Origin: Granulicella sp. L60
Lineage (GTDB): Bacteria; Acidobacteriota; Terriglobia; Terriglobales; Acidobacteriaceae
Assembly (NCBI RefSeq): GCF_009765825.1
Contig: NZ_LMUR01000020.1
Location: 126,994 to 190,993 of the forward strand
DNA length: 64,000 nucleotides
Direction: 5' to 3'
Shown piece by piece: positions 26,096 to 63,374 of this stretch. Made by a program: the position numbers and the translations under genes. A model generated the notes under the pieces. The model was not told where the DNA came from and searched no databases. It worked only from the letters and a program-made list of their open reading frames with translations. Positions within the stretch are counted from its first letter, which is position 1. Each line of letters starts with the position of its first letter.

Positions 26096-27562
26096 TTATT
26101 CCTGTTCGGTGGGCAGACGAACGACAAACTCCGTATCTCCGGGTTCAGAGCTGAACCGGATGGTGCCGTTGTACTGATCCACAATGCGCTGGACGATGCC
26201 TAATCCAATTCCTGTGCCTACGCCGACCGGTTTTGTCGTAAAGAAGGGATCGAAGATCTGGGCCTGGCTCTCCAGTGGAATGCCGCTGCCGTTGTCGGCG
26301 ATGCGAATGCAGATGTCTTTGTGTGGATGAGCAGGATCTGCAGCTGAGTCTTCCGCCCATGTGCGCACACTGATCTTTCCATTCTGGGGAACTGCGTCGA
26401 TTGCGTTGTCGAGAAGGTTCGTCCAGATCTGGTTCAGTCCCGTGCATTCGCTATGCAGAGGGGGAAGATTGGCGGCGAAGTTTTTCTCCACAGTAATCTC
26501 CTTCTCTCTCATCTTGTGAGCGAGGATCACCATCGTTGCATGAATGCTGTCGTTGACGTCGATCGTCTGTCTCTGCCCCTTGCCTTCGTAGGCGTAAGAC
26601 TTCACGGCATGGACCAGATCGGTGACTCGGCCGATGCTTTCCTCGATGGTGCCCACCAGTTGCATGCTTGAGACCATCGCCTCGAGCCAGTTCAACGCGT
26701 CAGAGAGCATCGTGCCATCGAAGTCCTGGCGGACGCACTCAAGCTGTTCAGAGTCCATGCCGATCGATGCGAGAGTGGGAGCCATCCTCCATGCATTTTC
26801 GACGTGGGCTGAATCCATCCATTCCGCCAGCGTCTCTTCCGCATCGCTCTGTTCCAGCGAATTCATCATCAGCGGCTTCTTGGCCGACAGGGCCTGTTTT
26901 TGCAGATTGTAGATGCACAGCTTTTGCTCGCGGGTGAGTTCGTACTCGCTCCAACTTAAGGTGAGCTCATGCATTCGTGTCAGGTTTTCGCGAAGCTGAG
27001 AAGCAGCACGGCGCGCCGCGGAGCCGGGGTTGTTCAGCTCATGCATCAGGCCGGCAGCAAGCGTGCCCAGCGAAGCCATCTTCTCCTGCTGTACCGTCAT
27101 GCTCTGCATCTTTTGCAGGCGTTGCGTCATGTTTCCTAGAATGGCCTTGCGTACATCCGGGCAGCTTGTCATCAGGCTCCAGAACTGCTCTTCGTCGAGC
27201 TGTAGAAGACGGCTCGATTGAGAAGCAAAGATATTAGCTGCGTTCGGAATGTTGGCGAGTAGAGGCAACTCGCCAAAGGTGTTTCCTGCCTCGATCTTGG
27301 CCACAGCTAGATCGGTTCCGTCGCCCAGAGCATGGTTGACGCTGAGCTCTCCCTCAAGCAGGATCCAGAAAAAATGTGCGCCCTCGCCCTGGCGAACCAG
27401 AACCTCGTCCTTTTCGATGCGAAGCTCCTGCACGCCCTCCACGCAGTACAACTCGTCATCCTTAAGCGACGACAGCAGGGGAACTTTGCGGAGCTGCGCA
27501 AACAGTTCTTGGTTCATCTTTTCCACGACGTGGCTTTGGACGGTCTGGGTTTGGTCACTCAT
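26096..27562 (-). CDS. Sensor histidine kinase with N-terminal cyclic-nucleotide-binding-like domain
   Basis: A 488-residue soluble kinase. Residues about 22-140 are a CRP-type beta-roll (LRIEKDEVLVRQGEGAHFFW, TFGELPLL). The Arg that normally contacts the cAMP phosphate is absent (PNAAN where P-R-S-A is usual), so the ligand may not be a cyclic nucleotide. HisKA: phospho-acceptor His174 in AAGLMHELNNPGSAARRAA. HATPase: NLLDNAID (N box, about 386), IADNGSGIP, FDPFFTTKP and GTGIGLGIV. No membrane segment. It starts 22 nt after the receiver-TrxR fusion stop, so the two form an operon. Confidence 0.92.
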   Translation of the reverse strand: MSDQTQTVQSHVVEKMNQELFAQLRKVPLLSSLKDDELYCVEGVQELRIEKDEVLVRQGEGAHFFWILLEGELSVNHALGDGTDLAVAKIEAGNTFGELPLLANIPNAANIFASQSSRLLQLDEEQFWSLMTSCPDVRKAILGNMTQRLQKMQSMTVQQEKMASLGTLAAGLMHELNNPGSAARRAASQLRENLTRMHELTLSWSEYELTREQKLCIYNLQKQALSAKKPLMMNSLEQSDAEETLAEWMDSAHVENAWRMAPTLASIGMDSEQLECVRQDFDGTMLSDALNWLEAMVSSMQLVGTIEESIGRVTDLVHAVKSYAYEGKGQRQTIDVNDSIHATMVILAHKMREKEITVEKNFAANLPPLHSECTGLNQIWTNLLDNAIDAVPQNGKISVRTWAEDSAADPAHPHKDICIRIADNGSGIPLESQAQIFDPFFTTKPVGVGTGIGLGIVQRIVDQYNGTIRFSSEPGDTEFVVRLPTEQE

Positions 27563-27584
27563 TGCGTTATGGTTTTACTGCCTT

Positions 27585-29231
27585 TCAAAGCGTAGCTAGA
27601 TACTGGTGCACAAACTGGATGGCGATGGAGCCCTCGCCCACTGCGGAAGCGCATCGCTTGACAGAGTTGAAGCGGACATCGCCCGCGACGAAGATTCCCG
27701 GCACGCTGGTCTCGAGCAGGTACGGGTCGCGATCGAGCTTCCAGGAGGCAGGCGACTTTGCCTTCAGGTCCGGGCCGGCGAGGATGAATCCCTTGTTGTC
27801 GCGGCAGAGCTCTGAGGGGAGCCAGTCGGTCTTGGGCGCTGCGCCGATGAAGATGAACAGGGAACCGGCCGGGCGACGCTCCTCACCGTTCGGCGTCGTC
27901 AGCGTCAAGCACTCCAGGTGGGTATCACCCGCCATGCCGACGACCTCGGTGCAGGTCTCGACGGTGATGTTCGGCGTCGCTTCGATCTGGTCGATCAGGT
28001 ACTTCGACATGCTGCTCTCAAGCGATTTGCCGCGTACCAGCATGTGGACCTTATCGGCATAGCGCGAGAAGTGCATCGCAGCCTGACCGGCGGAGTTTGC
28101 GCCGCCGACGATATAGACAGCCTCTTCCTTGCACGACATGGCCTCGGTGAGCGCTGCGCCGTAGTAGACGCCCGCACCGCTGAGCTTGTCGGCGCCGGGA
28201 ACGTCGAGCTTGCAGTAGTCCACGCCGGTTGCGATCAGGCAGACGTGGCAGGTGACCTCCTGGCCGCCCTCCATCTGGATGATGCGGTACTGGTTTTCGC
28301 TGCGGATGTTGGAGACGCGCTGGGTCAGGAACTCGGCACCGAGGCGGTTGGCCTGGAGGTAGGCGCGTTTGGCCAGCTCTTCGCCGCTGAGACCTTCGGG
28401 GAAGCCGAGGTAGTTCTCGATCTTCGAGCTTGATCCAGCCTGTCCGCCGGGCGCGGCTGCCTCGACCACCAGGGTGCGCAGGCCCTCCGATGCGCCGTAC
28501 ACGCCTGCTGCCAGCCCGGCCGGTCCTGCACCGATGACGACGACGTCGTAGAACTCCTGCTGGGCCTGGGTGCGCAGGCCGACCTTCTTAGCGATCTCGG
28601 TGGAGGTCGGCTGGACAAGCGCGGTGCCGTCTCCGAAGAGGATGACGGGCAGCTTGGTGTCGTCGATCCCTTTCTCTTTCAGGAGATCCAGGGCGTCCGG
28701 CGTCGTCTCGGGGTTCAGCCACTGGTAGGGGATACGGTTGCGCGAGAGGAAGTCGCGGACGGCGTGATCGGTCGCCGACCAACGGACGCCTACGACGCGA
28801 ATACCTTCGAATGGGGGCTTGTAGCCCTGCTTCCAACTCTCCAGCAGATCGTCCAGGATGGGATAGAGCTTCTCTTCGGGCGGATCCCAGGGCTTGTTGA
28901 GGTAGTAGTGAATCTTCGCGGAGTTGATGGCGCGAATGGCCGCTTCGGTGTCGGCGTAGGCGGTCAGCAGGACGCGCTTGGCGTTGGGATAGATGGCCAG
29001 TGCCTGCTGCAGGAAGTCGACCCCGGTCATACCCGGCATGCGTTGGTCGGAGAGCAGCAGGGCCACCACGTCCTTGCGCTCCTGCAGCTGGCGGCAGATG
29101 TCGAGCGCCGCTCCACCCGAAGCCGCCCGGACGATGCGGTAGTCCTGGCCGTAGTGACGGCGGAGGTCCTGGACCACTGCTTCCAGTACGCTGGTGTCGT
29201 CGTCGATGGCTAGTAAAACTGGTTTAGGCAT
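27585..29231 (-). CDS. Receiver domain fused to a thioredoxin-fold segment and a thioredoxin-reductase-like flavoprotein
   Basis: A 548-residue fusion. Residues 1-125 are a full receiver: acidic D10-D12, phospho-acceptor D62 in LLSDQRMPGMTG, T90 and K113. Residues about 144-220 look like a glutaredoxin/thioredoxin fold with cis-Pro (LPVILFGDG) but no Cys pair. Residues 228-548 are a TrxR-type flavoprotein: FAD motif VVVIGAGPAGLAAG, NADPH motif GGANSAGQAA, and C-terminal GIFVAGDV. The reductase CxxC is missing: GVYYGAALTE stands where G-x-x-Y-C-x-x-C-D-G is expected. Thus disulfide reduction is unlikely, and redox- or NADPH-linked signalling with the kinase downstream is inferred. Confidence 0.92.
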   Translation of the reverse strand: MPKPVLLAIDDDTSVLEAVVQDLRRHYGQDYRIVRAASGGAALDICRQLQERKDVVALLLSDQRMPGMTGVDFLQQALAIYPNAKRVLLTAYADTEAAIRAINSAKIHYYLNKPWDPPEEKLYPILDDLLESWKQGYKPPFEGIRVVGVRWSATDHAVRDFLSRNRIPYQWLNPETTPDALDLLKEKGIDDTKLPVILFGDGTALVQPTSTEIAKKVGLRTQAQQEFYDVVVIGAGPAGLAAGVYGASEGLRTLVVEAAAPGGQAGSSSKIENYLGFPEGLSGEELAKRAYLQANRLGAEFLTQRVSNIRSENQYRIIQMEGGQEVTCHVCLIATGVDYCKLDVPGADKLSGAGVYYGAALTEAMSCKEEAVYIVGGANSAGQAAMHFSRYADKVHMLVRGKSLESSMSKYLIDQIEATPNITVETCTEVVGMAGDTHLECLTLTTPNGEERRPAGSLFIFIGAAPKTDWLPSELCRDNKGFILAGPDLKAKSPASWKLDRDPYLLETSVPGIFVAGDVRFNSVKRCASAVGEGSIAIQFVHQYLATL

Positions 29232-32080: not shown

Positions 32081-35000
32081 CTATTCCACCTCAGTCAGTT
32101 GCTCGGTCGCCTTCGACATCTTCGCGGTTCGGTCGAGCTTGTCCCAGTTGAATGGTTTGCCGTCGATGGCGCGCTTGACGGTCTTCAATAGGACGACCGA
32201 AAACACCTGCCGGTAGGTAAACCGCTGAATCCAGATGTGGAAGAGGAGCCAGCCGTCGCCCTTGCTTGCAGGATGCTTTCGCTCCAGCGCGAAGGCCAGT
32301 GCGGAGGCCACGAAGTCGATGATCAGGAAGGCCGCAAAGAACGCCAGCAGCTTGTAGAAGCTGTCCGTCGATGCGGTCTCCGGGTGGAAGTGCTTGTCGA
32401 TCGCATAGTGGATCACCCCGCCGACGAACATCAGGTCGATCAGCGGCGAGACCAGCGGAAGCACGATCTGGAAGATGACGATATTCGGTAGCGCGAACAG
32501 GCCCATGGCGCGGCGCTTGCTGATCGCGCCCTTGTGCTTGAAGACCGCTTGAAGAATGCCGAAAGACCAGCGGAATCTCTGCCGCATCAGACCGTCCGCG
32601 TTGACCGGCGCCTCGGTGAAGGCCAGCGCCTGATCCTCATAGATCACGCAGTATCCCTGCTCCAGCAGGTTCATCGTGAGGTCGGCATCTTCGGCCACGG
32701 TGTTGGTGTGATAGCCACCGCCTGCGCGAACCGCAGAGGTCCGCCACGCTCCGATTGCGCCCGGAACCACCATCACAACGTCGAAGAGATCCAGTGCGCG
32801 CCGCTCGAAGTTCTGACTCGTGATGTACTCAAGCGCCTGCCAGCGCGTCCACAGATTCACCCGGTTGCCAACCTTCGCGTTCCCCGCGACCGCACCGATT
32901 CTCGGATTCGCGAAGTGGGGCACGAGGTTTGCAATCGCATCGTGCGCGATGACGCCGTCCGCGTCGATGCCGACGTAGATCTCCTCGTCGATGCGTTCGA
33001 GCGCGTAGTTCAGCGCATCGGCCTTGCCGCCGTTCGGCTTGCTCAACACCGTCAGCCGTCCCGACGCGATGTCCGCCGGGTACGCCTCGCGCGCCACGTC
33101 GAAGGTGTTGTCGGTCGAGCCGTCGTCGATCACGATAATGCGGATGTTCTTGTACGTCGACATCATCACGGACCGGATCGTCCGCACGATCACCTTCTCC
33201 TCGTTGTAAGAGGGAATCAGTACGGCAACCCGTGGCTGATACTCCGGCGTCGCATAGTTTTTCCTCTTGCGGAAGCGGTCGATGATGGCGAAGATTCCGA
33301 TGATGATCAGCCGCGCGCTCATCAGCACGTCGCCGACGAAGAAGACCGCGACCACAAAGTAGTGGAAGAAGCTGTAGAAGAAGAAGGTGATCGAGTCTGC
33401 GCGTGCCTGCCAGCGCTGGTGCGGCGTCAGCGGAGGCATCACTTCGGCGCGTGTCTTGCCCACTAGCTCTGACACCGGAACGATCTCGTACCCATGCGCC
33501 TTCAGAGCCTGGATCAGCACCGGAAGCGCGGCGATGGTGGCCGAGCGGTCGCCTCCGCCATCGTGCAGCAGAATGACGGACCCCTTGTTCCACGGATGCG
33601 TGTCCATCTGAGCGATCGTCTCGAAGACCCCGTCGGTGATCTCCTTCGGAGTCTTGCGCGGATGCTCGTCCCAGTCGTTGGTGTCAATCTTGTTGCCGAT
33701 GATGACGTAGCCGAGCCCTTGAATTCGTGCCACCGGCGCGGCCTGATCGTTGGTATCAGGTTCCTGGTCGATAGAGTAAGGCGGACGGAAGTAGAGCGGC
33801 TGCACCCCAAGCTTCGAGGCAAAGAGGCGCTCCGTCAGGTTCAGCTCCAGGTCGACCTGGCGGTTTGAAATTTCGCTGATGTCCGGGTGCGACCAGGTGT
33901 GATTGCCGATCTCGTTGCCTTCGCGATAGACGCGCTGCATGACCCCGACGTAGTCCTCGGCTATCTCGCCAATCATGAAGAACGTACCGTGCACGCCGTA
34001 CTGCTTCAGGATGTCGAGGATCTTCGGCGTCCACTCAGGATCGGGTCCGTCGTCAAACGTCAGCGCCACCTTCTTCGGGTGGTAACCGTACTGCTCCACC
34101 GTGTACGATAGCGGAAACGACTGCATCGACTCCTGCGTAATCTCGCGGTACTCCGCCGGCACGGAGTCGTCGTCGTCCATGGTCACGACACGCTCGCCGG
34201 TCTGCGGAGGACGTGTCACTCGCAGAATGTCGCCCTCGCCCTCTGTATCTACGTCGTAGCCGGGCTCAACCTGCGCCAGATCTTTCACGGGATCGGCGTG
34301 CAGCGGAGTGTCCCAGATCTTCCACAACGAGTTATCTTCCTGGCCCAGCCGCCAGAGCGCGTACGTCTGAATCCCCAGCATGCGCGCCGCACGCATCTCG
34401 TTCAGCGCGGTCACCGCATCCAGAAACCAGATCTGGTGGCGCTCGTGCGCGTCCACGTCGTCGTAGGCGAAGTGAACGTTCAGCGAGTCGTCGTCGAGAT
34501 CGATCTGGGAATCGGAGTCCACGGCTGCCTGCCATGCCTCCTGGGTCGACATATCGTGCGACGAGATCACCTTGGTCGGCTGTGGCTTGCGCTTCGATCC
34601 CTTCCTACCTGTCTCGGCATCCGGCAGCGACGTCGTCCAGTCGTAACCGTAGTTGCCGATCGAGCAGATGATCTTTTCCTTCGGCACCTTCTTCAGGACG
34701 TTCTTCAGGTTGTCGACGAACCAGTCCTGAGATGCGATGGGTCCCGGGTCGCCCTCGTTCTGATGCTCGTCGTAGTTCATCAACAATAGACCGTCGGAGT
34801 GGTCGGCAATAAACTTCAGGTCCCAGTCGTCGTCGCCTACGGGGGTGTTCACGTACAGGCGCAGATTCCGCGGATGGAAGTCACTATAGAGCGCTGCAAT
34901 TAGCGCATTCAGCCCAGGCTGCGCAGCGGTTGGAATCTCTTCGAGATCGAGCGAGAGTCCGCGATAGCTGGGATTGCCTGCTAGAAACTTATCCATCTGC

Positions 35001-35626
35001 TGAAGGAACGTGGCCCGTGCCTGCGGGTTGGAGAGGAACTCTCCTATCTGCGGCATCCACAGACCCTTCGTCGGACTGTAGTTGTTCACCAGCGGGAACA
35101 CGTCGAGGTTCACATGATTGGACGCGATGGTACGGGCGACCTTACCTTCGCGGTCTACTTGGTGGACGCCGGCCGAGTCCACCACCGGGTATGGCCGGTT
35201 GTCGGGTGTGTACGCGGTCAGCTTACCGTCGGGCGTGACAACGTGGAGCCACTCCGGAAACAGCAGGTCGACCTGGCTGATGTGCTGCTTCAGCGACGAG
35301 TAGCTCGCCGGATCGTCCTCAACGTAGTACGCCGCGCGCAGGCCTTCACCCTGGTTCAGGGGGACGTCGCCCGGCTTCACATCGGTCTTGCGGTGCGCGG
35401 AGCGGCGAAGCTTGGAACCCCTCAGAAACGCCGTGGACTGACTCGCCAGCGCCTTGTAGTTCCGCTTCGGCGACTGCAGAAACAGCTCCGGCAGCGGCTT
35501 CATCCGCAGCAGGCCGATGACGAAGACGGTCCCCAAAAGCAGCCCCGCGAGTGCGAGTAGGTCGAAGATTCGGCGCAGCCGCTTCCAGCGCTTGCGTTGT
35601 GGATCGTAGAAGACTTGTTTGTTCAT
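32081..35626 (-). CDS. GH18-like / polysaccharide deacetylase (NodB) / GT2 glycosyltransferase trifunctional membrane protein
   Basis: About 1181 residues with three catalytic modules in one chain. An N-terminal membrane helix (about 23-42) precedes a GH18-like domain (about 95-440) with GLSLDLEEIP, where the D-x-E pair gives the catalytic Glu near 229. A NodB deacetylase follows (about 515-725: VALTFDDGPDPEWTP, NHTWSHPD, FRPPY, LLHDGGG). After a helix pair (about 748-785), a processive GT2 domain has IDDGSTD, DADG, the catalytic ED in VAEDADL, and QRFRW, then C-terminal membrane helices. Synthesis, deacetylation and trimming of a GlcNAc-type polymer is inferred. ATG 35626; no clear ribosome site. 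Confidence 0.93.
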   Translation of the reverse strand: MNKQVFYDPQRKRWKRLRRIFDLLALAGLLLGTVFVIGLLRMKPLPELFLQSPKRNYKALASQSTAFLRGSKLRRSAHRKTDVKPGDVPLNQGEGLRAAYYVEDDPASYSSLKQHISQVDLLFPEWLHVVTPDGKLTAYTPDNRPYPVVDSAGVHQVDREGKVARTIASNHVNLDVFPLVNNYSPTKGLWMPQIGEFLSNPQARATFLQQMDKFLAGNPSYRGLSLDLEEIPTAAQPGLNALIAALYSDFHPRNLRLYVNTPVGDDDWDLKFIADHSDGLLLMNYDEHQNEGDPGPIASQDWFVDNLKNVLKKVPKEKIICSIGNYGYDWTTSLPDAETGRKGSKRKPQPTKVISSHDMSTQEAWQAAVDSDSQIDLDDDSLNVHFAYDDVDAHERHQIWFLDAVTALNEMRAARMLGIQTYALWRLGQEDNSLWKIWDTPLHADPVKDLAQVEPGYDVDTEGEGDILRVTRPPQTGERVVTMDDDDSVPAEYREITQESMQSFPLSYTVEQYGYHPKKVALTFDDGPDPEWTPKILDILKQYGVHGTFFMIGEIAEDYVGVMQRVYREGNEIGNHTWSHPDISEISNRQVDLELNLTERLFASKLGVQPLYFRPPYSIDQEPDTNDQAAPVARIQGLGYVIIGNKIDTNDWDEHPRKTPKEITDGVFETIAQMDTHPWNKGSVILLHDGGGDRSATIAALPVLIQALKAHGYEIVPVSELVGKTRAEVMPPLTPHQRWQARADSITFFFYSFFHYFVVAVFFVGDVLMSARLIIIGIFAIIDRFRKRKNYATPEYQPRVAVLIPSYNEEKVIVRTIRSVMMSTYKNIRIIVIDDGSTDNTFDVAREAYPADIASGRLTVLSKPNGGKADALNYALERIDEEIYVGIDADGVIAHDAIANLVPHFANPRIGAVAGNAKVGNRVNLWTRWQALEYITSQNFERRALDLFDVVMVVPGAIGAWRTSAVRAGGGYHTNTVAEDADLTMNLLEQGYCVIYEDQALAFTEAPVNADGLMRQRFRWSFGILQAVFKHKGAISKRRAMGLFALPNIVIFQIVLPLVSPLIDLMFVGGVIHYAIDKHFHPETASTDSFYKLLAFFAAFLIIDFVASALAFALERKHPASKGDGWLLFHIWIQRFTYRQVFSVVLLKTVKRAIDGKPFNWDKLDRTAKMSKATEQLTEVE

Positions 35627-35746
35627 CAAAAGGAGGCCAGGCGCATGCGGTAAGTCTCATCGTATGCAGCACGATGGTTTGAGTCAACGCAACGACGAAC
35701 ATGCAACGTCAGACACTCTGCCATTGCTTCAGTATGATGCAGAGAC

Positions 35747-37246
35747 ATGATCCCAGGACGTCTGAGAACAGGTCTCGCCGCCGCATCGGCTCTCGCGGCT
35801 GGGCTCCTGCTGCGCCTCTGGTTTGTGACACATGCGGGACGCATCGACGGCGACACCCTGATCTACGGCAACATCGCGAAGAACTGGATCCAGCACGGTG
35901 TCTACGGCTTCGTCACGACGGCCAGGGGAGTCTCGCCGACCCTGATCCGCCTGCCCGGATACCCGCTCTTTATCGCCGCCTGCTTCAGCATCTTCGGGGC
36001 CGATCACTATATCGCAGTCATGGTGGTGCAGTGCGTCGTCGATCTGTTGACCTGCCTTCTGATCGCAGCCCTCGCCGGACGTCTCTTCGGGCGGCGCGCC
36101 GCGACCGCCGCACTCTGGCTCTCCGTGCTCTGCCCCTTCACCGCGGCCTACACCTCCGCGCCGCTCACCGAGGTCCTCACCCTCACTACCATCGCCCTCG
36201 CTTTTTTTAGTCTCGAACGCTGGCAAAGCGCAGGCACAGGCTTCAATCGCTGGCTGTGGATCGCCGCCTCTGCCATGGCCTACTCGGTGCTGCTGCGGCC
36301 GGAGCAGGGCTTGCTCCCCGCCGCCATCGTGCTCGCAATGCTGTGGATGTCGTTGCGAAAACAGCCCGCCGAAGCGCGCAGGGAAGCCGCCGAAGCGCGC
36401 AGGGAAGCCGCCGAAGCGTACAAGCAGCCTGCCGAAGCCAGACCCACACAGCCCCACACGGTGGTTCAAGCCATCCTGCCGATAGCCCTCGCTGTGCTGT
36501 GCATCGTGCTTCCGCTCTTTCCGTGGGCCGTGCGAAACTGGCGCACCTTCCACGTCGTTCAGCCGCTCGCGCCGCGCTACGCCACCGATCCTGGCGAGCA
36601 TATTCCACTCGGCTTTCAGCGTTGGTACCGAAGCTGGGCCATCGACTACGCCTCCACCGAAGAGGTCTACTGGAACTACGACAGCGCAGAGATCGACCCC
36701 GCCAATCTTCCCACGCGCGCCTTCGACAGCAGGGAACAGTACCTCCGCACCTACGGCCTGCTCAGCGAGTACAACGACACCTACAACGCAACGCCAGCTT
36801 TCGACGCCCGCTTCGAAGCCATCGCCCGACAACGCATCCACGCCGACCCCATCCGCTACTATCTCGCCCTGCCCGTCGCCCGTCTGGTGAACATGCTGCT
36901 CCGCCCCCGCGCCGAGATGTTCCCCATCCCGCTCGACTGGTGGCACTGGCGCGGACACGCAGTCGCCGCCCTGGTAGCTCTCGCACTGGCCGCGCTCAAC
37001 CTCGCCTACTTCGTCCTCGGCGCAGTCGGCCTCTGGACGTGGCGCAGACGCGGCTTCGGCGAGCACACCGCGTTGGTGGGTGCAATGGTCGCCTTCGTCA
37101 TCCTGCGCTGCGCCCTGCTGCTCACCCTCGACAACTCCGAGCCTCGCTACACCCTCGAGTTCTTCCCGCTGCTCATCGTCTGGGGATCGGCCATCTTCCA
37201 GCGCCAGACGCTTTCACTCAGCTCCGACCCATCCACAGCAGAGTAA
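35747..37246 (+). CDS. GT39/ArnT-like integral-membrane glycosyltransferase
   Basis: A 499-residue polytopic protein with about ten hydrophobic helices. The first periplasmic loop has RIDGDTLIYGNIAKNWIQHG and RLPGYPLFIA, the acidic loop and R-x-P-x-Y-P pattern of dolichyl/undecaprenyl-phosphate-sugar transferases (PMT/GT39 superfamily). A cytoplasmic loop at about residues 206-230 holds a 7-residue repeat (AEARREA units) encoded by near-identical 21-bp DNA repeats at about 36366-36428. It probably moves a sugar from a lipid carrier to an envelope acceptor. It is divergent from the GH18-NodB-GT2 gene, fitting a polysaccharide theme. The 3' end overlaps DUF92 by 29 nt. Confidence 0.85.
   Translation: MIPGRLRTGLAAASALAAGLLLRLWFVTHAGRIDGDTLIYGNIAKNWIQHGVYGFVTTARGVSPTLIRLPGYPLFIAACFSIFGADHYIAVMVVQCVVDLLTCLLIAALAGRLFGRRAATAALWLSVLCPFTAAYTSAPLTEVLTLTTIALAFFSLERWQSAGTGFNRWLWIAASAMAYSVLLRPEQGLLPAAIVLAMLWMSLRKQPAEARREAAEARREAAEAYKQPAEARPTQPHTVVQAILPIALAVLCIVLPLFPWAVRNWRTFHVVQPLAPRYATDPGEHIPLGFQRWYRSWAIDYASTEEVYWNYDSAEIDPANLPTRAFDSREQYLRTYGLLSEYNDTYNATPAFDARFEAIARQRIHADPIRYYLALPVARLVNMLLRPRAEMFPIPLDWWHWRGHAVAALVALALAALNLAYFVLGAVGLWTWRRRGFGEHTALVGAMVAFVILRCALLLTLDNSEPRYTLEFFPLLIVWGSAIFQRQTLSLSSDPSTAE
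36366..36428 (+). repeat. 21-bp tandem repeat inside the GT39-like gene
   Basis: The unit GCCGAAGCGCGCAGGGAAGCC with a further GCC step occurs twice identically, with a third partial copy (GCCGAAGCGTACAAGCAGCC). It encodes repeated A-E-A-R-R-E-A in a cytoplasmic loop. The 21-bp period keeps the frame, so copy number can change without breaking the gene. Confidence 0.75.
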
Positions 37247-38087
37247 TCGCAGCGGCAAACAGCGTCGACGCAAAGTTCACCAGATCGTTCCCCAGCCACC
37301 CACGCTCCTCCACCGTCGCGCCCAGAACGCTATCGAACAACAGCCCTGCACACGCCGCACCAAACACCGGCAGCGCATGCGGCCACAGCGCACCGTGCAG
37401 CGATCCCGCAGCCACCACCAACCCCGCCGCCACCATCCCGGCAGCGGTTCCGGCAACGCTGACGCCGCCGTCTCTCCCCGGCGCCACCCGTCGCAGCGTC
37501 GTAATTAGCCACGCCTGGCCGCCGATCGCCTGCCCCACCTCCGACGACACCGTATCCGCCACAGCCTCGGCCAGCGCCGCGATGCATCCCGCATACCACC
37601 CCACCACCCCGCACAACGCAGCAACGCCGAGGTTAGCCACGATCTGCGAAGCACGCCGCCCCGTCCGCGCCTCCGCCAGTCCGCGCTTCTCCTTGCTTTT
37701 TCTTCCAAACCGCGTCGCCGCAAACGTCAGAACGAACAGCACGATCAGCGCAGGAATCGCCGAGCCGCCGAAGCCCGCACCGCGATCTCCATACCTCGCA
37801 ACCGCCGGAGCCTGCGCCAGCACCACGCACACCAACATCCCCACACCCGCCGCCGGCAGCGTCGCCGACCGCAAACCCCACACCAGCCCGGCAAACCCGA
37901 GACTAAACAGCCAGGGCAGAAGCAGCGGACGCAGCGACATCCCTGCCGCGCTCATCCGCAACGGCCCAGCCACCGCTCCCGCCACCAGCAGGCACGCCAC
38001 CACGCCCGCCAGCACCTGCGACTGCACCCGGTCCCTCTCTCGCGAGATCGTCTTCCGCCAACCGGTATCTTCCTGGCTCCCGTGCAT
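37218..38087 (-). CDS. DUF92-family membrane protein
   Basis: A 289-residue membrane protein with about six to seven hydrophobic helices. The C-terminal half has the DUF92/TMEM19 signature: AEAVADTVSSEVGQAIGG, RRVAPGRDGGVSVAGTAAG and FDSVLGATVEERGWLGNDLV, with NFAST. Plant and cyanobacterial relatives include phytyl-phosphate kinase (VTE6); a polyprenyl-phosphate kinase role is possible by analogy only. The ATG at 38087 has AAGGAA close upstream. The 3' end overlaps the plus-strand GT39-like gene by 29 nt. Confidence 0.88.
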   Translation of the reverse strand: MHGSQEDTGWRKTISRERDRVQSQVLAGVVACLLVAGAVAGPLRMSAAGMSLRPLLLPWLFSLGFAGLVWGLRSATLPAAGVGMLVCVVLAQAPAVARYGDRGAGFGGSAIPALIVLFVLTFAATRFGRKSKEKRGLAEARTGRRASQIVANLGVAALCGVVGWYAGCIAALAEAVADTVSSEVGQAIGGQAWLITTLRRVAPGRDGGVSVAGTAAGMVAAGLVVAAGSLHGALWPHALPVFGAACAGLLFDSVLGATVEERGWLGNDLVNFASTLFAAAITLLWMGRS

Positions 38088-38174
38088 TTCCTTGCCGCCC
38101 TCCGCTCCGCGACGACCTGTGATTTACAATCAACTTTGAGAATAGCCAACACCAGCAACATCGCGGGAGCAGTT

Positions 38175-39689
38175 TTGCACTTAGCAAGAATCGAAGCAGA
38201 AGGAATCACCCAGTCGCGGCCATCACGGCGCCCCGTTCGGTCTGTAGTCCAGGCCTTCCGCCTCGCATCCGGGCTTGCCTTGTCTGCCGCGATGCTCACC
38301 CTGGTCACCGGCTGCGGCAACAACTACCGGCCCGTCGTCACCGCCATCAATCCGGTCGGTCCCGCCGCGCAGCCGTCGAAGTTCGCCGTCGTGATCTCAG
38401 ATCCCGGAACCGCCGCAAGTCCGGCTCCCGGCCTGGTCACCTTCGTCGACTTCGCCGGAGATACGGTTCTGATCACGGCCAACATCGGCGTGAATCCCTA
38501 CTACCTCATCCTCAACAGCGGGGGCACCACCGGCTTCACCCTCAACGGCGACCACACGCTCACCAGCTTCGACGTCGATACCTCGCTGCTGACCAGTAAT
38601 ATCAACCAGACCACGCTGCTCCCCAACGCGAACCCGGTTAGCCTCTTTCCCGAAGGCGCCAGCACCTACGTCGCCGACCCCGGACTCGGAGCCGTCTCCC
38701 AGTTCACCAGCGCCAGCGGATCTCTCGCCCTCAGCCTGCAGCAGAACTTCCCCATCGCGTCGCCCTACACCCCGATCTATACCGTCGGCGTCGCCGGCGC
38801 ACCGCGTGCCTACGCCATCAGCCAGAACACCACCGGAGCCAACGGCATCGTCTCCACCATCGAGACCACCAGCAACACGGTCGACTCAGTTACGATTCCC
38901 GTCGGCAAGACCCCTGTCTACGGCGTCATGACCGCAGACGCGAGACGCGCCTTCATCCTGAACGAGGGCGACGGCACTGAGACGGTCATCAACGCCCAGA
39001 CCAATCTGCTCGACACCTTTACTCCGCTCAACCCGGCGACCGGCCAGCCTCTGCCTGTCACCTCGACCATCGCCGATCCAGCTGCGGTCGCTCCGATCTG
39101 GGCAGACTTCGCTCCGGTTCGTAACGAGATGGTCGTGGCCAACCAGGGCGACGGCGTCCACCCCGGCTCGCTCAGCGTCATCAGCATTCCCCTCTGCTCG
39201 GCGAACGCGCTGCCATCGAATCCGAACTGCGATCCGAGCAATCCCATCGATGCCGTCGGCTTCGGTACCGTCCAGGCCAACATCCCCGTCGGCGTTCGTC
39301 CAGTCATGGTCGGCGTCGTGCAGGATGTCAACAACAGCCGCGCTTACGTCGCTAACGGCGGCGACCTGAGCCTTCCCTGCGCCGTCGCCACACCCGTCGC
39401 AGGCGTCACCACTGGCTGCTCGGTCTCGGTCATCGACCTAAACACCAACACCGTCATCGCGACCATTCCTCTTCCGACGAATCCGACGAATTCAAACAGT
39501 TCGGTTACTGTGGTCGCTAACGGTCATCCCAACTACCTCGCTGTCACCTCCGGCACTCCAACCAGCAAGGTCTACGTCACATCCGGCGAGTCGAACTTCA
39601 TGACCGTCATTCGTACCGACACGGATGCTGTCGATACCACCGTCCCACTGCAGGGAAGCGGCGTATCTGTTCGCGTCACCCTTCCGTAG
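38175..39689 (+). CDS. YncE/NHL-like beta-propeller lipoprotein
   Basis: About 504 residues. A long basic n-region, a hydrophobic stretch (LASGLALSAAMLTLVTG) and Cys in L-V-T-G-C make this a lipoprotein. The mature part is a seven-bladed-type beta-propeller with repeated blades such as NTVDSVTIPVGKTPVYGVMT, AQTNLLDTFTPL, NTNTVIATIPLP and DTDAVDTTVPLQ, the pattern of YncE/surface-antigen propellers. The start is the TTG at 38175 because GGGAG lies 6 nt before it. An ATG at 38082 is in frame but would overlap the divergent DUF92 start. Periplasmic or surface binding role; ligand unknown. Confidence 0.85.
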   Translation: MHLARIEAEGITQSRPSRRPVRSVVQAFRLASGLALSAAMLTLVTGCGNNYRPVVTAINPVGPAAQPSKFAVVISDPGTAASPAPGLVTFVDFAGDTVLITANIGVNPYYLILNSGGTTGFTLNGDHTLTSFDVDTSLLTSNINQTTLLPNANPVSLFPEGASTYVADPGLGAVSQFTSASGSLALSLQQNFPIASPYTPIYTVGVAGAPRAYAISQNTTGANGIVSTIETTSNTVDSVTIPVGKTPVYGVMTADARRAFILNEGDGTETVINAQTNLLDTFTPLNPATGQPLPVTSTIADPAAVAPIWADFAPVRNEMVVANQGDGVHPGSLSVISIPLCSANALPSNPNCDPSNPIDAVGFGTVQANIPVGVRPVMVGVVQDVNNSRAYVANGGDLSLPCAVATPVAGVTTGCSVSVIDLNTNTVIATIPLPTNPTNSNSSVTVVANGHPNYLAVTSGTPTSKVYVTSGESNFMTVIRTDTDAVDTTVPLQGSGVSVRVTLP

Positions 39690-51880: not shown

Positions 51881-52459
51881 ATGATTCTTCGTCGCATCTC
51901 GTCCGGAATTCCATGGCTCTTCGTCTTGCTACTACTTCTTGGCTCGCTTTCACTTCAGGGAGCTGCACGACTGCCTCCGGCAACGATTCTGCTAATGCGC
52001 CATGCAGAAAAAACCGATGGTAGCGCAAATCTGTCTCCGGAGGGCTTTGAGCGGGCCAAGCGCCTAAGTGAACTCTTCCTGCCGGAAGGCACGAGATCGG
52101 ATCTGCCAAAGCCTCAGTTTCTCTTCGCTACTCATGAGAGCGCTCACTCCGATCGGCCAGTCCAGACCGTCGAGGACCTCTCGAAAGCTCTGAACCTGTC
52201 CATTAATGATGCGTTCAGAGATGAAGACTATGCAGGACTCGCAAAGGAGTTGCTCAGCGGTAGGTATGCTGGCAAGGTTGTGCTTGTGGTCTGGCACCAT
52301 GGCAAGATTCCGCAGCTGACGAAGGCACTTGGAGCGACGCCTCCTTATACCCCATGGCCTGAGCAGCAGTTCGACCGCATCTGGCGCATTGACTATGTAC
52401 ATGGCAAGGCAACGGTGCGCGATCTTCCATTCGCACTGATGCCAGGGGATTCCCAGTAG
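51881..52459 (+). CDS. Secreted or anchored histidine-phosphatase-superfamily protein
   Basis: A 192-residue protein. A hydrophobic N-terminus (IPWLFVLLLLLGSLSLQG) acts as a signal peptide or anchor. The catalytic motif is LLMRHAEKTD (R-H-x-E in place of the common R-H-G-E), then NLSPEGFERAKRL with the usual Arg-rich helix, and the second His in VVWHHGKIPQL. The histidine phosphatase (phosphoglycerate-mutase-like) superfamily covers phosphatases and mutases; a periplasmic phosphatase is likely. Divergent from the iron operon, no partner genes. Confidence 0.85.
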   Translation: MILRRISSGIPWLFVLLLLLGSLSLQGAARLPPATILLMRHAEKTDGSANLSPEGFERAKRLSELFLPEGTRSDLPKPQFLFATHESAHSDRPVQTVEDLSKALNLSINDAFRDEDYAGLAKELLSGRYAGKVVLVVWHHGKIPQLTKALGATPPYTPWPEQQFDRIWRIDYVHGKATVRDLPFALMPGDSQ

Positions 52460-52506
52460 GAGTTGTCGGTGCTTGCTTAGCTTGTTGGGGGTGTGAGGTC
52501 GTACTA

Positions 52507-52583
52507 TGGTGCGCCCGGAAGGATTCGAACCTCCGACCCTTTGGTTCGTAGCCAAATGCTCTATCCAGCTGAGCTACGGGCGC
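52507..52583 (-). tRNA. tRNA-Arg (anticodon ACG)
   Basis: Read on the minus strand: acceptor GCGCCCG paired with CGGGCGC, D arm GCTC...GAGC, anticodon stem TTTGG/CCAAA with loop CTACGAA (anticodon ACG, A34 normally becomes inosine), T arm GGAGG-TTCGAAT-CCTTC. The discriminator A is followed by an encoded CCA, so the gene is 77 nt with CCA. It decodes CGN arginine codons. Confidence 0.97.
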
Positions 52584-52739
52584 ACATTGCAGTAGAGGCA
52601 ACCTTTTAAAGATATAGGAAGTTGGTCTGCGGATCAAGTCTCGCGATGGTTTGTAGTGGATCAGTTGAGGAGCTGGGCGTAGTCTGCCTCATCCGTTTAT
52701 TGGTGCTCCCAATAAGTCGGCAAAGGAAATTTTATCGTG

Positions 52740-53537
52740 CTAAGGATTGAGCTTTCCACCGATGGCTGCTGTAATCTCCGCCGTCGCTTTACGTAGTATT
52801 TTGGTGACCTGGTCTGCGTTCTTGGCGGACTCGGTGTATTGAATGTACGGAACGGTAAGCGCACCGACTGCTGAACCGCGATCGTCCAATACAGGAAAAC
52901 TTATATTCATGACACCCTTCACGAGATAGCTGGCACGCTTTTCATAGCCTGCCTTTCTGATGCGCGCGAGGTGTACGTCAAGATCTCGTGGAGGCTTCTT
53001 GCCGGTCTCTCTGCTCCATTCCACGAGGGTTCTCTCGCGCTGTGCATCATTCAGGTGAGAGAGAATGACATAACCGCTGGCTGCTTCCATCAAATCTACG
53101 GTGGATCCGAGTTTTACGTAGAAGCCAAGGTTTGCAGGCGCGTTTACCTGCGCAAGGATCACCACTCGATCGGTCTCCAGCACACCCAGGTGACATGATT
53201 GCATGGCTTCGTGAGAGAGTCTGTGCATTACGGGTAAGGCGTCGGCGATCAGGCGTTCTGTTGGAGGATGCTCCTGTACAAGTTTGAAGAGCTTTAACGT
53301 CAGTGAATATCGCTCCTCGGCGATCTGAGAGATATATCCACGCCCTTCTAGACAGAGCAACATTCGAAATATCTCGGACACTGTTCGATTCAACCCGCGG
53401 GCTATCTGGCTTTTGGTCAGTCCCTCTGACTGGTGCGCAAGCAGTTCAATCACATCCAGGCCTTTTTCGAGCGCAGGTGTGGAATAGGTAACAGTTTTCC
53501 CAACCTTTGAAGATCTTCCGCCTCGTTTGCTGACCAT
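52740..53537 (-). CDS. IclR-family transcriptional regulator
   Basis: A 265-residue regulator. N-terminal winged HTH (about 18-85): ALEKGLDVIELLAHQSEGLT, KSQIARGLNRTVSEIFRML, RGYISQIAEERYSLTLKLF. C-terminal effector domain (about 90-260) with CHLGVLETDRVVILAQVNAP and the sugar/acid-binding region ASYLVKGVMNISFPVLDDRG. The ribosome site AGGAGAAG is upstream of ATG 53537. It is divergent from the alpha-L-fucosidase gene across about 250 bp, so it probably controls the fucose genes with fucose or a breakdown product as effector. That link is inferred from position. Confidence 0.92.
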   Translation of the reverse strand: MVSKRGGRSSKVGKTVTYSTPALEKGLDVIELLAHQSEGLTKSQIARGLNRTVSEIFRMLLCLEGRGYISQIAEERYSLTLKLFKLVQEHPPTERLIADALPVMHRLSHEAMQSCHLGVLETDRVVILAQVNAPANLGFYVKLGSTVDLMEAASGYVILSHLNDAQRERTLVEWSRETGKKPPRDLDVHLARIRKAGYEKRASYLVKGVMNISFPVLDDRGSAVGALTVPYIQYTESAKNADQVTKILRKATAEITAAIGGKLNP

Positions 53538-53784
53538 AAATCGCTGCTTCTCCTGTGTTATCGCTTCGACACAGAGTACAGGATTACTTTGTTCTCGAAT
53601 AGAGCTTAAACGTTATTCCAAGCTCCGTAGAAGGTGCAGTTTGCAGGCTGAATCCGAGCTGCGAAACAGACGTTTGCGTCAAGAGTTCAGACGCTTTAGG
53701 CAAAGATAGGTGTGTCGCGGCTTGCTGGCAGCGGTTAGGACATTTTCCGTCATAAAACATATTTTTCACATACAATTCTCCCAA

Positions 53785-55248
53785 ATGATTCCACGTCGAG
53801 GAACTCGCTTGAATTTATCCCGCAGCCTATCTATCGTCTGTCTCTTCGCGATGAGCATCGCTTCCTCCGCGCAGCCACAGGATAAGCAATTGAAAGCTCA
53901 ACCTGCGCACCCGGTACCTTCTGTGCAAGATACCGAGACGCACGCTCAGCGCGATGCTCGTATGGAGTGGTTTCGCGAAGCACGCTTCGGCATGTTCATC
54001 CATTGGGGGCTTTACTCGGTTCCTGCCGGGACGTGGAAGGGCAAGCAGATTCCAGGCATTGGCGAGTGGATTATGAACAACGGGTCCATTCCTGTAGCGG
54101 ACTATAAAGCTCTCGCTCCACAATTCAATCCTGTTGCGTTCAGTGCTCATGACATCGTCGCCCTGGCCAAGTCTGCGGGTATGAAATACATCATCATCAC
54201 GGCCAAGCATCATGATGGCTTTGCGATGTTCGACTCGAAAGCAGATCCGTTTAATATTGTCGATGCGACGCCGTTCAAGCGAGATCCTCTCCGTGAGTTG
54301 GCGGCTGAGTGTAGGAAGCAGGGAATCAAGCTGGGCTTCTATTACTCTCAGGACCAGGATTGGACTGCTCCCGGTGGAGCTGCTTACAAGACGGGCGACC
54401 ATCAGCCCCCGACCTTTCACTGGGATAAGGCGCAGGATGGCGACTTCGCGACATATCTCCACACGAAAGCCATTCCTCAAATGAAAGAGCTCCTCTCTAA
54501 CTATGGCGACTTTCCCGCCATCATTTGGTTCGATACTCCGACCAAGGACATGACACCTGCTCTCGCCGGTGAGATTGTGGCACTGATGAATAAATATCCC
54601 AAGCTCATTTGGAATAATCGCCTGGGTGGTGGCTACGATGGTGACACTGAGACGCCTGAGCAGTTCATCCCGCCTCAGGGATACAAGGGCCGCGATTGGG
54701 AGTCCTGTATGACGATCAATGACACCTGGGGTTACAAGTCTTACGACACCAACTTTAAATCCACGGAGACTCTCGTTCGGAATCTCATTGACATTGCCAG
54801 TAAGGGCGGCAACTATCTTCTCAATATTGGACCGGATGCGCAGGGTAATGTTCCTTCGGCAGAGGTTGAGCGTCTGCAGCAGGTTGGAAGATGGATCTCA
54901 GTGAACGGTGAGTCTATCTATGGCACTCAGCCAACACTATTTGGAGACGAGGCGGGTTCCTACAATTCTAGCGAAAAGGATAGTAAGGGTAAACCGAAGT
55001 TTATTCCCGCCTGGAACTGGAGATCTACTACTACCGCCGACAAGATTTACATCGAACTCTTCACATGGCCGACCGGGAAATTCCATCTGAACAAAGTTCC
55101 CAGAACAGTCACCAGTGCGTACCTGTTGGCGGATCCATCGCACACTCCACTTAAGTTCACACAGACCTCGGCTGGATTGGATGTTGAACTGCCGTCAAAA
55201 GCACTTGATCCCATTGCGACTGTGCTCGTCCTGAACACCGAGAAGTAG
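53785..55248 (+). CDS. Secreted alpha-L-fucosidase, GH29
   Basis: A 487-residue exported GH29 enzyme that releases L-fucose from glycans. A signal peptide (RSLSIVCLFAMSIASSAQ) precedes the barrel: REARFGMFIHWGLYSVPAG, IITAKHHDGFAMFDSK, LGFYYSQDQDW, and the nucleophile Asp in PAIIWFDTP. The C-terminal beta domain begins near GGNYLLNIGPDAQGN. Start choice: ATG 53785, or a TTG at 53809 with GAGGAA at good spacing, which would also leave a fair signal peptide. First gene of the L-fucose group; the product feeds the dehydrogenase downstream. Confidence 0.93.
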   Translation: MIPRRGTRLNLSRSLSIVCLFAMSIASSAQPQDKQLKAQPAHPVPSVQDTETHAQRDARMEWFREARFGMFIHWGLYSVPAGTWKGKQIPGIGEWIMNNGSIPVADYKALAPQFNPVAFSAHDIVALAKSAGMKYIIITAKHHDGFAMFDSKADPFNIVDATPFKRDPLRELAAECRKQGIKLGFYYSQDQDWTAPGGAAYKTGDHQPPTFHWDKAQDGDFATYLHTKAIPQMKELLSNYGDFPAIIWFDTPTKDMTPALAGEIVALMNKYPKLIWNNRLGGGYDGDTETPEQFIPPQGYKGRDWESCMTINDTWGYKSYDTNFKSTETLVRNLIDIASKGGNYLLNIGPDAQGNVPSAEVERLQQVGRWISVNGESIYGTQPTLFGDEAGSYNSSEKDSKGKPKFIPAWNWRSTTTADKIYIELFTWPTGKFHLNKVPRTVTSAYLLADPSHTPLKFTQTSAGLDVELPSKALDPIATVLVLNTEK

Positions 55249-55497
55249 GAGTTTGGGCGCGGATTTATATCGCAACTTAGCAAACTTGAAGCTGTTGGAG
55301 CAATGGTTGAGAGCCACGCATGTGTTACCTGGAATTTTTTGCCGTGAGGTTGCTTAAGAATCGGTGATGCGACTAAGCCTGAGCTCTCCTCGCGCCGTAT
55401 CTTTGTTCCGATACGTATCATTTCTAAGCGGAGTTGATTTCAGTTAGGTAACGGCGGCTTTTCAACTGCGATAAAGATAATCCTGGTAGGAGGAATT

Positions 55498-56283
55498 ATG
55501 GATTTGGGATTGAAGGATCGCGTGATCGTAGTCACCGGAGGTGGATCGGGGATTGGAGAGGCTGTGACCCGATCCTGTATCGAGGAGGGAGCAGCGGTTG
55601 TCGTGGTCAGTAAGATTTCAGACAACGTGAGGAACTTTGTCGAGGAGATGAGTCAAAAGCAATATCGGTGCGATTTTGTGGAGACGCATCTCGAAGATTC
55701 AGATCAGTGTCTAAAAGCAGTGGAGTACGTGAAAAAGACGCATGGCCGTATGGACGGCCTGGTTAATAATGCCGGCTCAAATGATGGCGTCGGCCTTGAG
55801 AGCGGCGATCCTGGTCGATTTATGGAGAGCCTGCGGCAAAATCTACTGCATTATTATGCGATGGCACACTACGCGCTTCCTCTTCTGAAGGAATCTCGCG
55901 GAGCGATTGTCAATATCAGTTCGAAGGTCGCCTTGACAGGGCAGGGCGGCACGTCGGCCTATGCGGCGGCAAAGGGCGCACAGCTGGCACTTACGCGAGA
56001 GTGGGCGGCGGAGTTATTGCCGTTTGGAATCCGTGTTAACTCGGTTCTTCCAGCCGAGGTGTTTACGCCACTTTACAAACGTTGGTTGGATACGCAGGCG
56101 GACCCGGCAGCGGCGATGGAGAAGATCACGAGACACATTCCATTGGGCCAGCGTATGACCGAAGCTTCGGAGATCGCAGCAATGACAGTTTTTCTGCTCT
56201 CGTCGACCAAGTCCGGCCATACAACGGCTCAGCATCTGATCGTTGATGGTGGGTATACGCATCTGGATCGCATATTGACTTGA
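55498..56283 (+). CDS. L-fucose dehydrogenase (SDR family)
   Basis: A 261-residue SDR with TGGGSGIG (Rossmann), NNAG, Ser in VNISSKVALTGQGG, and Y-A-A-A-K in SAYAAAKGAQLALTREWAAE. The PAEVFTPLYKRWL stretch after the active site and the MDLGLKDRVIVVTGG start are typical of bacterial L-fucose dehydrogenases, which oxidise L-fucose to L-fuconolactone in the non-phosphorylating pathway. AGGAGG lies in front of the ATG. It follows the fucosidase by about 250 bp. The lactonase, dehydratase and later enzymes are not in the window. Confidence 0.85.
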   Translation: MDLGLKDRVIVVTGGGSGIGEAVTRSCIEEGAAVVVVSKISDNVRNFVEEMSQKQYRCDFVETHLEDSDQCLKAVEYVKKTHGRMDGLVNNAGSNDGVGLESGDPGRFMESLRQNLLHYYAMAHYALPLLKESRGAIVNISSKVALTGQGGTSAYAAAKGAQLALTREWAAELLPFGIRVNSVLPAEVFTPLYKRWLDTQADPAAAMEKITRHIPLGQRMTEASEIAAMTVFLLSSTKSGHTTAQHLIVDGGYTHLDRILT

Positions 56284-56398
56284 TCCCATGCTTGGACATT
56301 TTGTCTTCGTTCTTTACAGGATTGTTTACAAATATGCGCCACCCTTTTCATGAAGTTGATGCATCACTCGAGATTTTGATTGGAATGAAAGTAAGGCG

Positions 56399-57853: not shown

Positions 57854-58085
57854 GGGGCTTTGATCTCTTGATGTTCTCCGTACTCGCTGTCCTTACGGAA
57901 TACTGCGCCGTCAGTTTCTGGTCCTTCGGAACTTGCAGGACTTATAAGAAGTTTATTCGCCTTGATGTTTCTGCAAGAAGGATGAGTGTCGTAGCTGTGA
58001 AACCTATATAAGTGTTAACTTGATACCCAAACTCCATATCGCAGGGTACGACTCACTTATAGATCGGTTTGCAGTTCGAATCAGT

Positions 58086-60062: not shown

Positions 60063-60380
60063 TGTCACCTCGTGTCGTCGTCGGACTTTGAAGATATAAG
60101 TAAGATGCTGAAGATTTGGAGCAAGGCAGTCCAAATGGGTTGGATGCTCATGTCTTTCGTGAGCCGGATCGCAGCGAACTCGTATCGCCGGTGGCGAAAG
60201 TCTGCACGGCACACAAGCGGTGATGGCTAAATAATGATAGCTGTTTAGTACTTGCATGGCGAAGAATGTAAATCTTGGGCCGCCGAAACAGTAAGTCGGC
60301 AAAAAGTTCTCTGCTTCGACGGGACAATCGTCTGCGTATGATCAGTTGGAGAACAATAGAAGGAATATGGAGGAAACAAC
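60063..60380. other. Divergent spacer between the MscS channel and an SDR gene
   Basis: About 318 bp with no gene I can support. It must contain the promoters of the channel (minus) and the SDR (plus). The SDR side ends with a strong GGAGGAAACAACGTG start region. No operator-like palindrome stood out. Confidence 0.45.
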
Positions 60381-61100: not shown

Positions 61101-61165
61101 ATACTCGATGAGTTTTATTAAGTCCAGATTTTGATCAGACAATCGCTATGGCGTGCTTGCTGCGG

Positions 61166-63289: not shown

Positions 63290-63374
63290 GCCTTTTTGGA
63301 TGCGAAATCCTTAGATCAGTTGCGCTGCGGGGAGCTGCGAATCTACAGGCCATTCAAAATCATCGTCTTCTTCG

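Follow-up and report, generated by a model that had tools for sequence, protein, structure and literature searches.

In this study we focus on a gene of the acidobacterium Granulicella sp. L60, located on the minus strand of a 64,000-nucleotide stretch of contig NZ_LMUR01000020.1 (positions 126,994 to 190,993; hereafter the window), which encodes in one polypeptide a GH18 barrel, a CE4 (NodB) deacetylase and a PgaC-like GT2 glycosyltransferase. We propose, with a probability of roughly 0.55, that this trimodular protein is an inner-membrane, PgaC-type processive synthase of an amino-sugar polymer that carries its own extracytoplasmic processing head. We favour as its product a partly deacetylated polymer of N-acetylglucosamine (GlcNAc), because a GT2 module leaning towards PgaC is combined with a CE4 module leaning towards PdaB, PgdA and NodB, as in the MatB protein of Streptomyces; the linkage would more likely be beta-1,6 than beta-1,4. 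The architecture itself is known. What goes beyond the first-pass annotation, made earlier from the letters of this DNA, is a clade of homologues in which the catalytic Glu of the GH18 module is naturally replaced by Gln, and a GT-C glycosyltransferase partner.

Results

Three modules in a single chain

From 35629 down to 32081 the minus strand is a single stop-free frame of 1,182 codons counted from a TTG. Its second codon, an ATG at 35626, is likely the start, which gives a protein of 1,181 amino acids; initiation at the TTG is possible. Along the chain follow a transmembrane (TM) helix, the GH18 barrel, the CE4 deacetylase, a second TM helix, the PgaC-like GT2 domain and two further helices (Table 1). 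All three modules passed their Pfam cut-offs, GH18 with PF00704 (37.7 bits, cut-off 29.6), CE4 with PF01522 Polysacc_deac_1 (115.9 bits, cut-off 23.1) and GT2 with Glyco_tranf_2_3 (103.6 bits, cut-off 27), so that the fusion of three modules in one chain read in the first-pass annotation stands. The catalytic motifs which it had listed as kept (D-x-E, TFDDG, H-x-x-x-H and DD/DxD/ED/QRFRW) are likewise all there. In the numbering of the window protein (P0001), used throughout, they are D228-L-E230 and MNYDE 284-288 in GH18; TFDDG 524-528, H577/H581, RPPY 615-618 and LLHDG 687-691 in CE4; and DDGS 835-838, DAD 889-891, ED 980-981 and QRFRW 1017-1021 in GT2, the last set being that of processive GT2 enzymes. 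The longer textbook GH18 motif is DxxDxDxE; of this the window protein retains D-x-E, and its residue 226 is Ser in place of an Asp of that motif.

Structure prediction, proposed earlier along with domain search, gave a chitinase-type barrel for the GH18 module, which was modelled alone by AlphaFold with pLDDT 90.3 and pTM 0.88. Its alignment with 5jh8 by VIA-align has a Z of 32.5 and a root-mean-square deviation of 2.6 over 307 residues, and by Foldseek and VIA-align the predicted fold groups with chitinases and SleL. PgaB structures were absent among the 50 listed Foldseek/VIA-align rows for this module, an absence that excludes nothing, and a search of a viral structure library returned mostly generic GH18 and other barrels. 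The full-length model is poorer (pLDDT 72.2, pTM 0.55), with unreliable C-terminal helices, and inter-domain packing was therefore not used. In the full-length fold search the CE4 part matched the Bc1960 deacetylase of Bacillus cereus (4l1g, target TM-score 0.83), and for the GT2 part the matches were weak, with 0.53 for PcManGT and about 0.4 for hyaluronan synthases.

Family assignment and conservation of the catalytic modules

Among NCBIfam models the GT2 module scored best with PgaC_IcaA (TIGR03937, 177.9 bits), followed by TIGR03111 (96.1), NodC (TIGR04242, 93.7, where the equivalog cut-off of 550 bits was missed) and CelA (63.3). PgaC also outscored NodC in 5/5 further trimodular or CE4-GT2 proteins (Prevotella, Deinococcus, Sphingobium, Sulfitobacter and Kocuria), as well as in a CE4-GT2 stretch of a Streptomyces plasmid (L103; 182 vs 85 bits).

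Conservation was assessed in an alignment of 116 rows, 111 of them different, made up of the window protein, 80 + 7 scan loci, 19 proteins retrieved from genomes and nine from plasmids. The GT2 residues D835, D836, D889, D891, E980, D981, Q1017, R1018, R1020 and W1021 are invariant in 116/116 rows. The CE4 residues D526, H577, H581, R615, P617 and H689 are equally so, with D527 kept in 115 and D649 in 114. The sole row with an altered second Asp in the CE4 FDDG motif is L033 (FDGG), which also has Gln at position 230. Over the 81 family rows, mean pairwise identity falls from GT2 (0.795) through CE4 (0.722) to GH18 (0.589).

Predicted topology

Hydropathy and charge predict a cytoplasmic N-terminus, with GH18 and CE4 on the outer side of the membrane and GT2 in the cytoplasm; for the hydrolytic modules this is the orientation that the first-pass annotation had assumed, which is thus supported as a prediction. 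The net charge is +7 in the N-terminal tail, 0 before and +3 after TM2, +5 for residues 1030-1046 ahead of TM3, -2 in the loop between TM3 and TM4 and +6 in the C-terminal tail. Mean charges over the 116 homologues go in the same direction, and basic N-terminal tails resembling FYDPQRKRWKRLRR occur also in homologues from other phyla (17 tails compared).

Loss of the GH18 catalytic Glu in one clade

The GH18 module has lost active-site residues in part of the family: among the 116 rows E230 is missing in 14, D287 in nine, D228 in five, W426 in three and Y286 in one. E230 is replaced by Gln in ten and by Arg in one of the 88 rows formed by the window and the scan loci, and by Gln in one further row (L130); the other two rows without it are from Rhodobacterales, where the local alignment is uncertain. 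When the GH18 columns were left out of the tree, the 11 Gln rows (among them Granulicella mallensis and Bryocella elongata) grouped as a single clade with SH-aLRT 99, and on that tree the loss of E230 requires at least three changes.

The rest of the module is retained in this clade. Of the 94 family rows 83 lie outside it, and at least 97% of these agree in 75 GH18 columns; among these columns only E230 (0/11) and D287 (5/11) are kept by fewer than 70% of the members of the clade. As E230 loss was the criterion by which the rows were chosen, only the loss of D287 and the 73 retained columns are independent of the choice. Fifteen further clades, each of 7-20 rows, served for comparison; being nested, they are not independent. 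E230 and D287 are kept in all of them, and losses, of one or two different columns, occur in three. The ratio of GH18 to GT2 rates is 2.56 in the Gln clade (46 pairs) vs 2.28 for 512 pairs of Glu rows from the same larger clade, with a standard deviation of about 0.4; the slightly faster GH18 is a weak hint of relaxation.

GH18 hydrolysis thus looks dispensable in the Gln clade. Since the Glu is lost from a module that is otherwise kept, fold included, a role in holding or guiding the chain is probable; Glu-to-Gln mutants that trap ligands in chitinase crystals are evident from the titles of 3alg and 4mnl. The window protein, with both E230 and D287, may still cut the chain.

Distribution of the family

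Named genomes were scanned, and of 122 relatives the best 80 were kept as family loci; the nearest named ones among these 80 are from Edaphobacter lichenicola. All 80 are conserved nearly end to end with 60-86% identity to the window protein, so the frame is not a chance one. A scan of 297 genomes of the phylum gave at least 640 bits in 52, namely 31/31 Acidobacteriaceae and 21/266 elsewhere. A denser sample of Acidobacteriaceae, at E <= 1e-150 and with some matches cut by contig ends, had a match in 103/120 genomes and in 77/88 of those of good quality. On plasmids, at least 80% of the protein was matched in 21 of 72,556 records, from Sphingomonadaceae, Sulfitobacter, Deinococcus and Prevotella, and those homologues that are annotated are named glycosyltransferase or glycosyl transferase family 2.

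The architecture had already appeared in print (here and below, papers are cited for the portions of them that were accessible). A GH18-CE4-GT2 protein of Acetivibrio cellulolyticus, ZP_09465738, was tabulated in 2012 (PMC3413522, Table 4). PMC7065263 has a CE4-GH18-GT2 protein that seems to come from Sphingobacterium multivorum w15. Among the records listed by keyword searches of the accessible open-access literature, judged by their titles, the openings of their abstracts and selected passages, none was a functional study of a protein with this architecture.

A divergent GT-C gene and other neighbours

The start of a GT-C (PMT_2) gene lies 120 bases from the trimodular ATG, in divergent orientation, and a relative stands divergently upstream in 76/80 family loci. 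Three of the four remaining loci have less than 400 bases upstream. The only true absence is L029, a metagenome-assembled genome of Acidobacteriaceae from lichen, which has Arg at position 230 and no GT-C despite a 5-kb upstream flank. Among the 297 genomes of the phylum, a GT-C match of at least 80 bits was found in 38/52 with the trimodular gene vs 0/245 without it (Fisher 1e-36), and outside Acidobacteriaceae in 8/21 vs 0/245 (4e-10). At E 1e-10 the latter counts become 8/21 vs 4/245 (1.5e-7), the four additional matches being weaker (42-66 bits). All these p-values ignore relatedness, and the eight outside genomes represent three families. Outside Acidobacteriaceae the GT-C gene adjoins the trimodular gene divergently in L117 and downstream in L125, and lies about 2 kb downstream in L119; in the outside family f4 the two are on separate contigs in 5/5 genomes. 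Searches with the hidden Markov model gave no GT-C match in L113 or L114. The window GT-C protein has no match among PDB sequences up to E 0.1, and NCBIfam offers no useful name for it.

Other neighbours recur less often in the 80 loci: aldehyde dehydrogenase in 36, LuxR in 30, reductase in 24, kinase in 15 and GH3 in three; these counts are limited by the flanks, which reach at least 13,000 bases in 45 of the loci. YdjC, DUF92, the gene at 38082-39689 and RskA were found in 0/80. No operon is claimed, the neighbours other than the GT-C gene being present in at most 36/80 loci.

On plasmids of sphingomonads the trimodular gene lies near a lysyl-phosphatidylglycerol synthase, a VirJ/AcvB-type hydrolase and a two-component pair, in varying order, in 5/5 loci (L097, L098, L105, L106 and L108, of 11 listed; L097 and L108 are near-identical), possibly an envelope-charge cluster. 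A DUF3131 gene follows the trimodular gene in both Rhodobacterales plasmid loci examined, of nine listed (L100, 10195-12525; L107, 9487-11976). A Paenibacillus plasmid (L102, 2122-9565) groups separate genes for a deacetylase, a NodC-like GT2 with PilZ, a deacetylase and a GH18 protein, and is a split counterpart with another GT2 type.

Elsewhere in the window, a cyclic nucleotide monophosphate-binding histidine kinase stands beside a frame read from its translation as a fusion of a response-regulator receiver and a thioredoxin-reductase-like domain (26096-29231, minus strand). From about 52 kb (52001-64000) the G+C content drops from about 0.60 to 0.51-0.53, beside a tRNA-Arg (52507-52583, minus strand); this region is possibly an integrated island.

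Table 1 Coordinates of the trimodular gene, its modules and motifs, and the divergent neighbour in the window
Feature	Position	Strand	Basis
Trimodular gene, GH18-CE4-GT2	32081..35629	-	open frame, Pfam
TM1, residues 23-41, preceded by basic tail FYDPQRKRWKRLRR	35507..35563	-	hydropathy
GH18 barrel, residues 94-446	34292..35350	-	Pfam, AlphaFold domain model, VIA-align
GH18 catalytic D228-L-E230, intact in window protein	34940..34948	-	motif, alignment
GH18 M284-N-Y-D287	34769..34780	-	motif, alignment
Beta-rich linker GH18/CE4, residues 455-514	34088..34267	-	AlphaFold secondary structure
CE4/NodB deacetylase, residues 515-728	33446..34087	-	Pfam, PDB sequence and fold matches
TM2, residues 747-777	33299..33391	-	hydropathy, charge
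GT2 synthase domain, residues 796-1040	32510..33244	-	Pfam, NCBIfam
QRFRW motif, residues 1017-1021	32567..32581	-	Q, R, R and W invariant in 116/116 rows
TM3, residues 1050-1068	32426..32482	-	hydropathy
TM4, residues 1094-1112	32294..32350	-	hydropathy
Divergent GT-C (PMT_2) glycosyltransferase	35747..37246	+	Pfam PF13231, 47.6 bits (cut-off 26.1)
Intergenic region between both divergent starts	35630..35746	.	frame coordinates

Discussion

We infer the following order of events for the proposed synthase. The cytoplasmic GT2 module would polymerise GlcNAc from its uridine diphosphate donor and feed the chain across the membrane, and the periplasmic CE4 module would strip some of the acetyl groups at the outer face of the inner membrane. 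The GH18 module would grip and guide the emerging chain and, where D-x-E is intact, as in the window protein, could also cut it, for length setting or release. The GT-C protein encoded next door would probably attach a lipid-linked sugar to the product, or anchor the product.

Several observations weigh against this proposal. The CE4 module scores best with the PdaB, PgdA and NodB models. Enzymes of these types act on beta-1,4 substrates or peptidoglycan, a point made also for the CE4 of MatB (PMC5972031). GH18 enzymes normally cut beta-1,4 GlcNAc. The GT2 score with PgaC_IcaA stays below the equivalog cut-off of 422.3 bits (E. coli PgaC scores 648), and the backbone of a tree of 28 GT2 domains, in which PgaC, BcsA and NodC sit on long branches, does not settle the placement of the module; because of this open backbone the tree was not used for linkage beyond a separate, starred, long-branched pair formed by NodC and the Paenibacillus GT2. 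Of the likeness to PgaB plus PgaC seen in the first-pass annotation, the PgaC half thus holds as best match (178 vs 94 bits for NodC) and falls short of the equivalog level, and the PgaB half is weakened, the GH18 module being a chitinase/SleL-type barrel with an at best putative kinship to the PgaB hydrolase, GH153. The stretch of 20 residues past TM1 is positive as well (+3), and the topology therefore counts as prediction only. Moreover, the notion of a self-contained machine is doubtful because of the conserved GT-C neighbour, and the view of GH18 as a hydrolase, which agrees with the intact D-x-E of the window protein, has to accommodate the homologue clade that lost the Glu.

The pga machinery was not found either. 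PgaA (TIGR03939) gave 12 partial matches in the window's genome, the best of 36.0 bits against a cut-off of 366.65 (in the control one of 14 genomes, presumably E. coli, was over the cut-off), and PgaD and the GHL13 hydrolase domain of PgaB gave no match each, E. coli being the one positive for each in the controls. Gram-negative fusions of a glycosyltransferase and a deacetylase have been reported in operons with no detectable pgaA or pgaD, and other modes of export were suggested for them (PMC7112194). Furthermore, the bulk exopolysaccharide of two other Granulicella strains consists of Man, Glc, Gal and Xyl, with no acetate by nuclear magnetic resonance; no amino sugar is among the reported sugars, but the accessible text lists no hexosamine standard (PMC5259719). 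These exopolysaccharide data weigh against a bulk secreted product.

A beta-1,4 chain, that is short or long chitin or chitosan made by a one-chain analogue of NodC and NodB with GH18 as chain-length editor, is possible, if unlikely. The top CE4 scores with PdaB, PgdA and NodB and the chitinase-type barrel speak for it, and so does the Paenibacillus plasmid, which groups a deacetylase, GH18 and a GT2 scoring 193 bits with NodC and 125 with PgaC. However, the PgaC score of the window GT2 is about double its NodC score, and the pairing of NodC with the Paenibacillus GT2 on its own long branch sets that enzyme type apart. Moreover, MatB shows the same PgaC/PgdA mosaic, and for it calcofluor staining spoke against a beta-1,4 product (PMC5972031).

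It is improbable that the product is an amino-sugar glycolipid or short envelope glycan, with GT2 putting GlcNAc on a lipid and CE4 making it cationic, in the manner of HexSDF. The gene group of the sphingomonad plasmids and the GT-C neighbour in Acidobacteriaceae would fit, and so would HexSDF of Clostridioides difficile, which is needed for an aminohexosyl lipid and in which a two-component system controls a synthase, a deacetylase and an MprF-like flippase; the annotation of HexS, however, is monogalactosyldiacylglycerol synthase and not GT2 (PMC10128005). QRFRW and the C-terminal helices indicate a processive synthase, and the window's genome has no PF09924 match for a lysyl-phosphatidylglycerol synthase. 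Finally, it is highly improbable that GH18 and CE4 serve to remodel peptidoglycan or some other pre-existing glycan, with GT2 a mere membrane anchor or minor-sugar enzyme: the nearest GH18 structures do include the spore-cortex lytic SleL and YdhD, and the nearest CE4 structures the peptidoglycan deacetylases Bc1960 and PdaC, but GT2 is the most conserved module, its checked motif residues are invariant, and it is GH18 that lost its catalytic Glu in one clade.

Returning to the processive synthase, a bolder version of it, which we regard as rather doubtful, is that GH18 is turning from hydrolase to lectin (chain grip only, by the Glu-to-Gln change, in the clade of Granulicella and Bryocella) and that the product is a cationic envelope glycan rather than a loose biofilm polymer, completed by GT-C in Acidobacteriota and linked with lysyl-phosphatidylglycerol in sphingomonads. 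If true, this would be one surface-charge device in acid-tolerant and envelope-stressed bacteria.

The family matters beyond the window, as it is widespread among the Acidobacteriaceae, which are common bacteria of soil. A survey found GH18 genes in all subdivision 1 genomes and discussed them in the context of chitin use (PMC5900883). In 12 of 41 family genomes the sole PF00704 match over the cut-off is the trimodular protein (ten frames of more than 1,000 amino acids and two pieces cut by contig ends), in a genome-wide search that missed the window's own GH18 module and hence also undercounts. The GH18 module of a biosynthetic protein can therefore pass for a chitinase and may inflate counts of chitinases. 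That the Glu has been lost in nature also raises the question, which applies to PgaB as well, whether a hydrolase domain linked to a synthase must cut the chain or only hold it.

Comparison with known systems

The closest architectures are the Acetivibrio cellulolyticus protein, with the same three modules in the same order in one chain (PMC3413522), and the protein of PMC7065263, with the same modules in one chain and CE4 before GH18; both are listed in the accessible text as architectures with no function, and are likened here by description, not by sequence. The Gram-negative fusions reported in 2020 join, as the window protein does, a glycosyltransferase to a deacetylase, there of the PgaB/IcaB-like type, and in the accessible part of that paper no GH18 module is named; this likeness, too, is by description and not by sequence (PMC7112194). 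HexSDF of C. difficile combines a synthase and a deacetylase with an MprF-like partner and a two-component system, as found near the sphingomonad homologues, and differs in its separate genes, its synthase annotated as another type and its glycolipid product (PMC10128005).

In E. coli, PgaB and PgaC of pgaABCD likewise bring a synthase, a deacetylase and a TIM-barrel hydrolase to one polymer. They are separate proteins, however, with CE4 followed by GH153 where the window protein has GH18 followed by CE4, and the operon includes PgaA and PgaD, neither of which is over the cut-off in the window's genome.

A functional precedent is MatB of Streptomyces (PMC5972031), compared by description, its plasmid relative L103 having been aligned. 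It differs from the window protein in its partner MatA and its Gram-positive host, and the accessible text names no GH18 module and mentions no GT-C neighbour. The GT2 of MatB is nearest to PgaC and its CE4 nearest to PgdA/NodB, like those of the window protein. In Streptomyces lividans MatB is needed for the signal of an antibody against poly-N-acetylglucosamine, a signal that dispersin B removes (PMC5972031). In MatB a membrane helix joins an extracellular CE4 to an intracellular GT2, and the same arrangement in one chain, CE4 outside and GT2 in the cytoplasm, is found in the predicted topology of the window protein.

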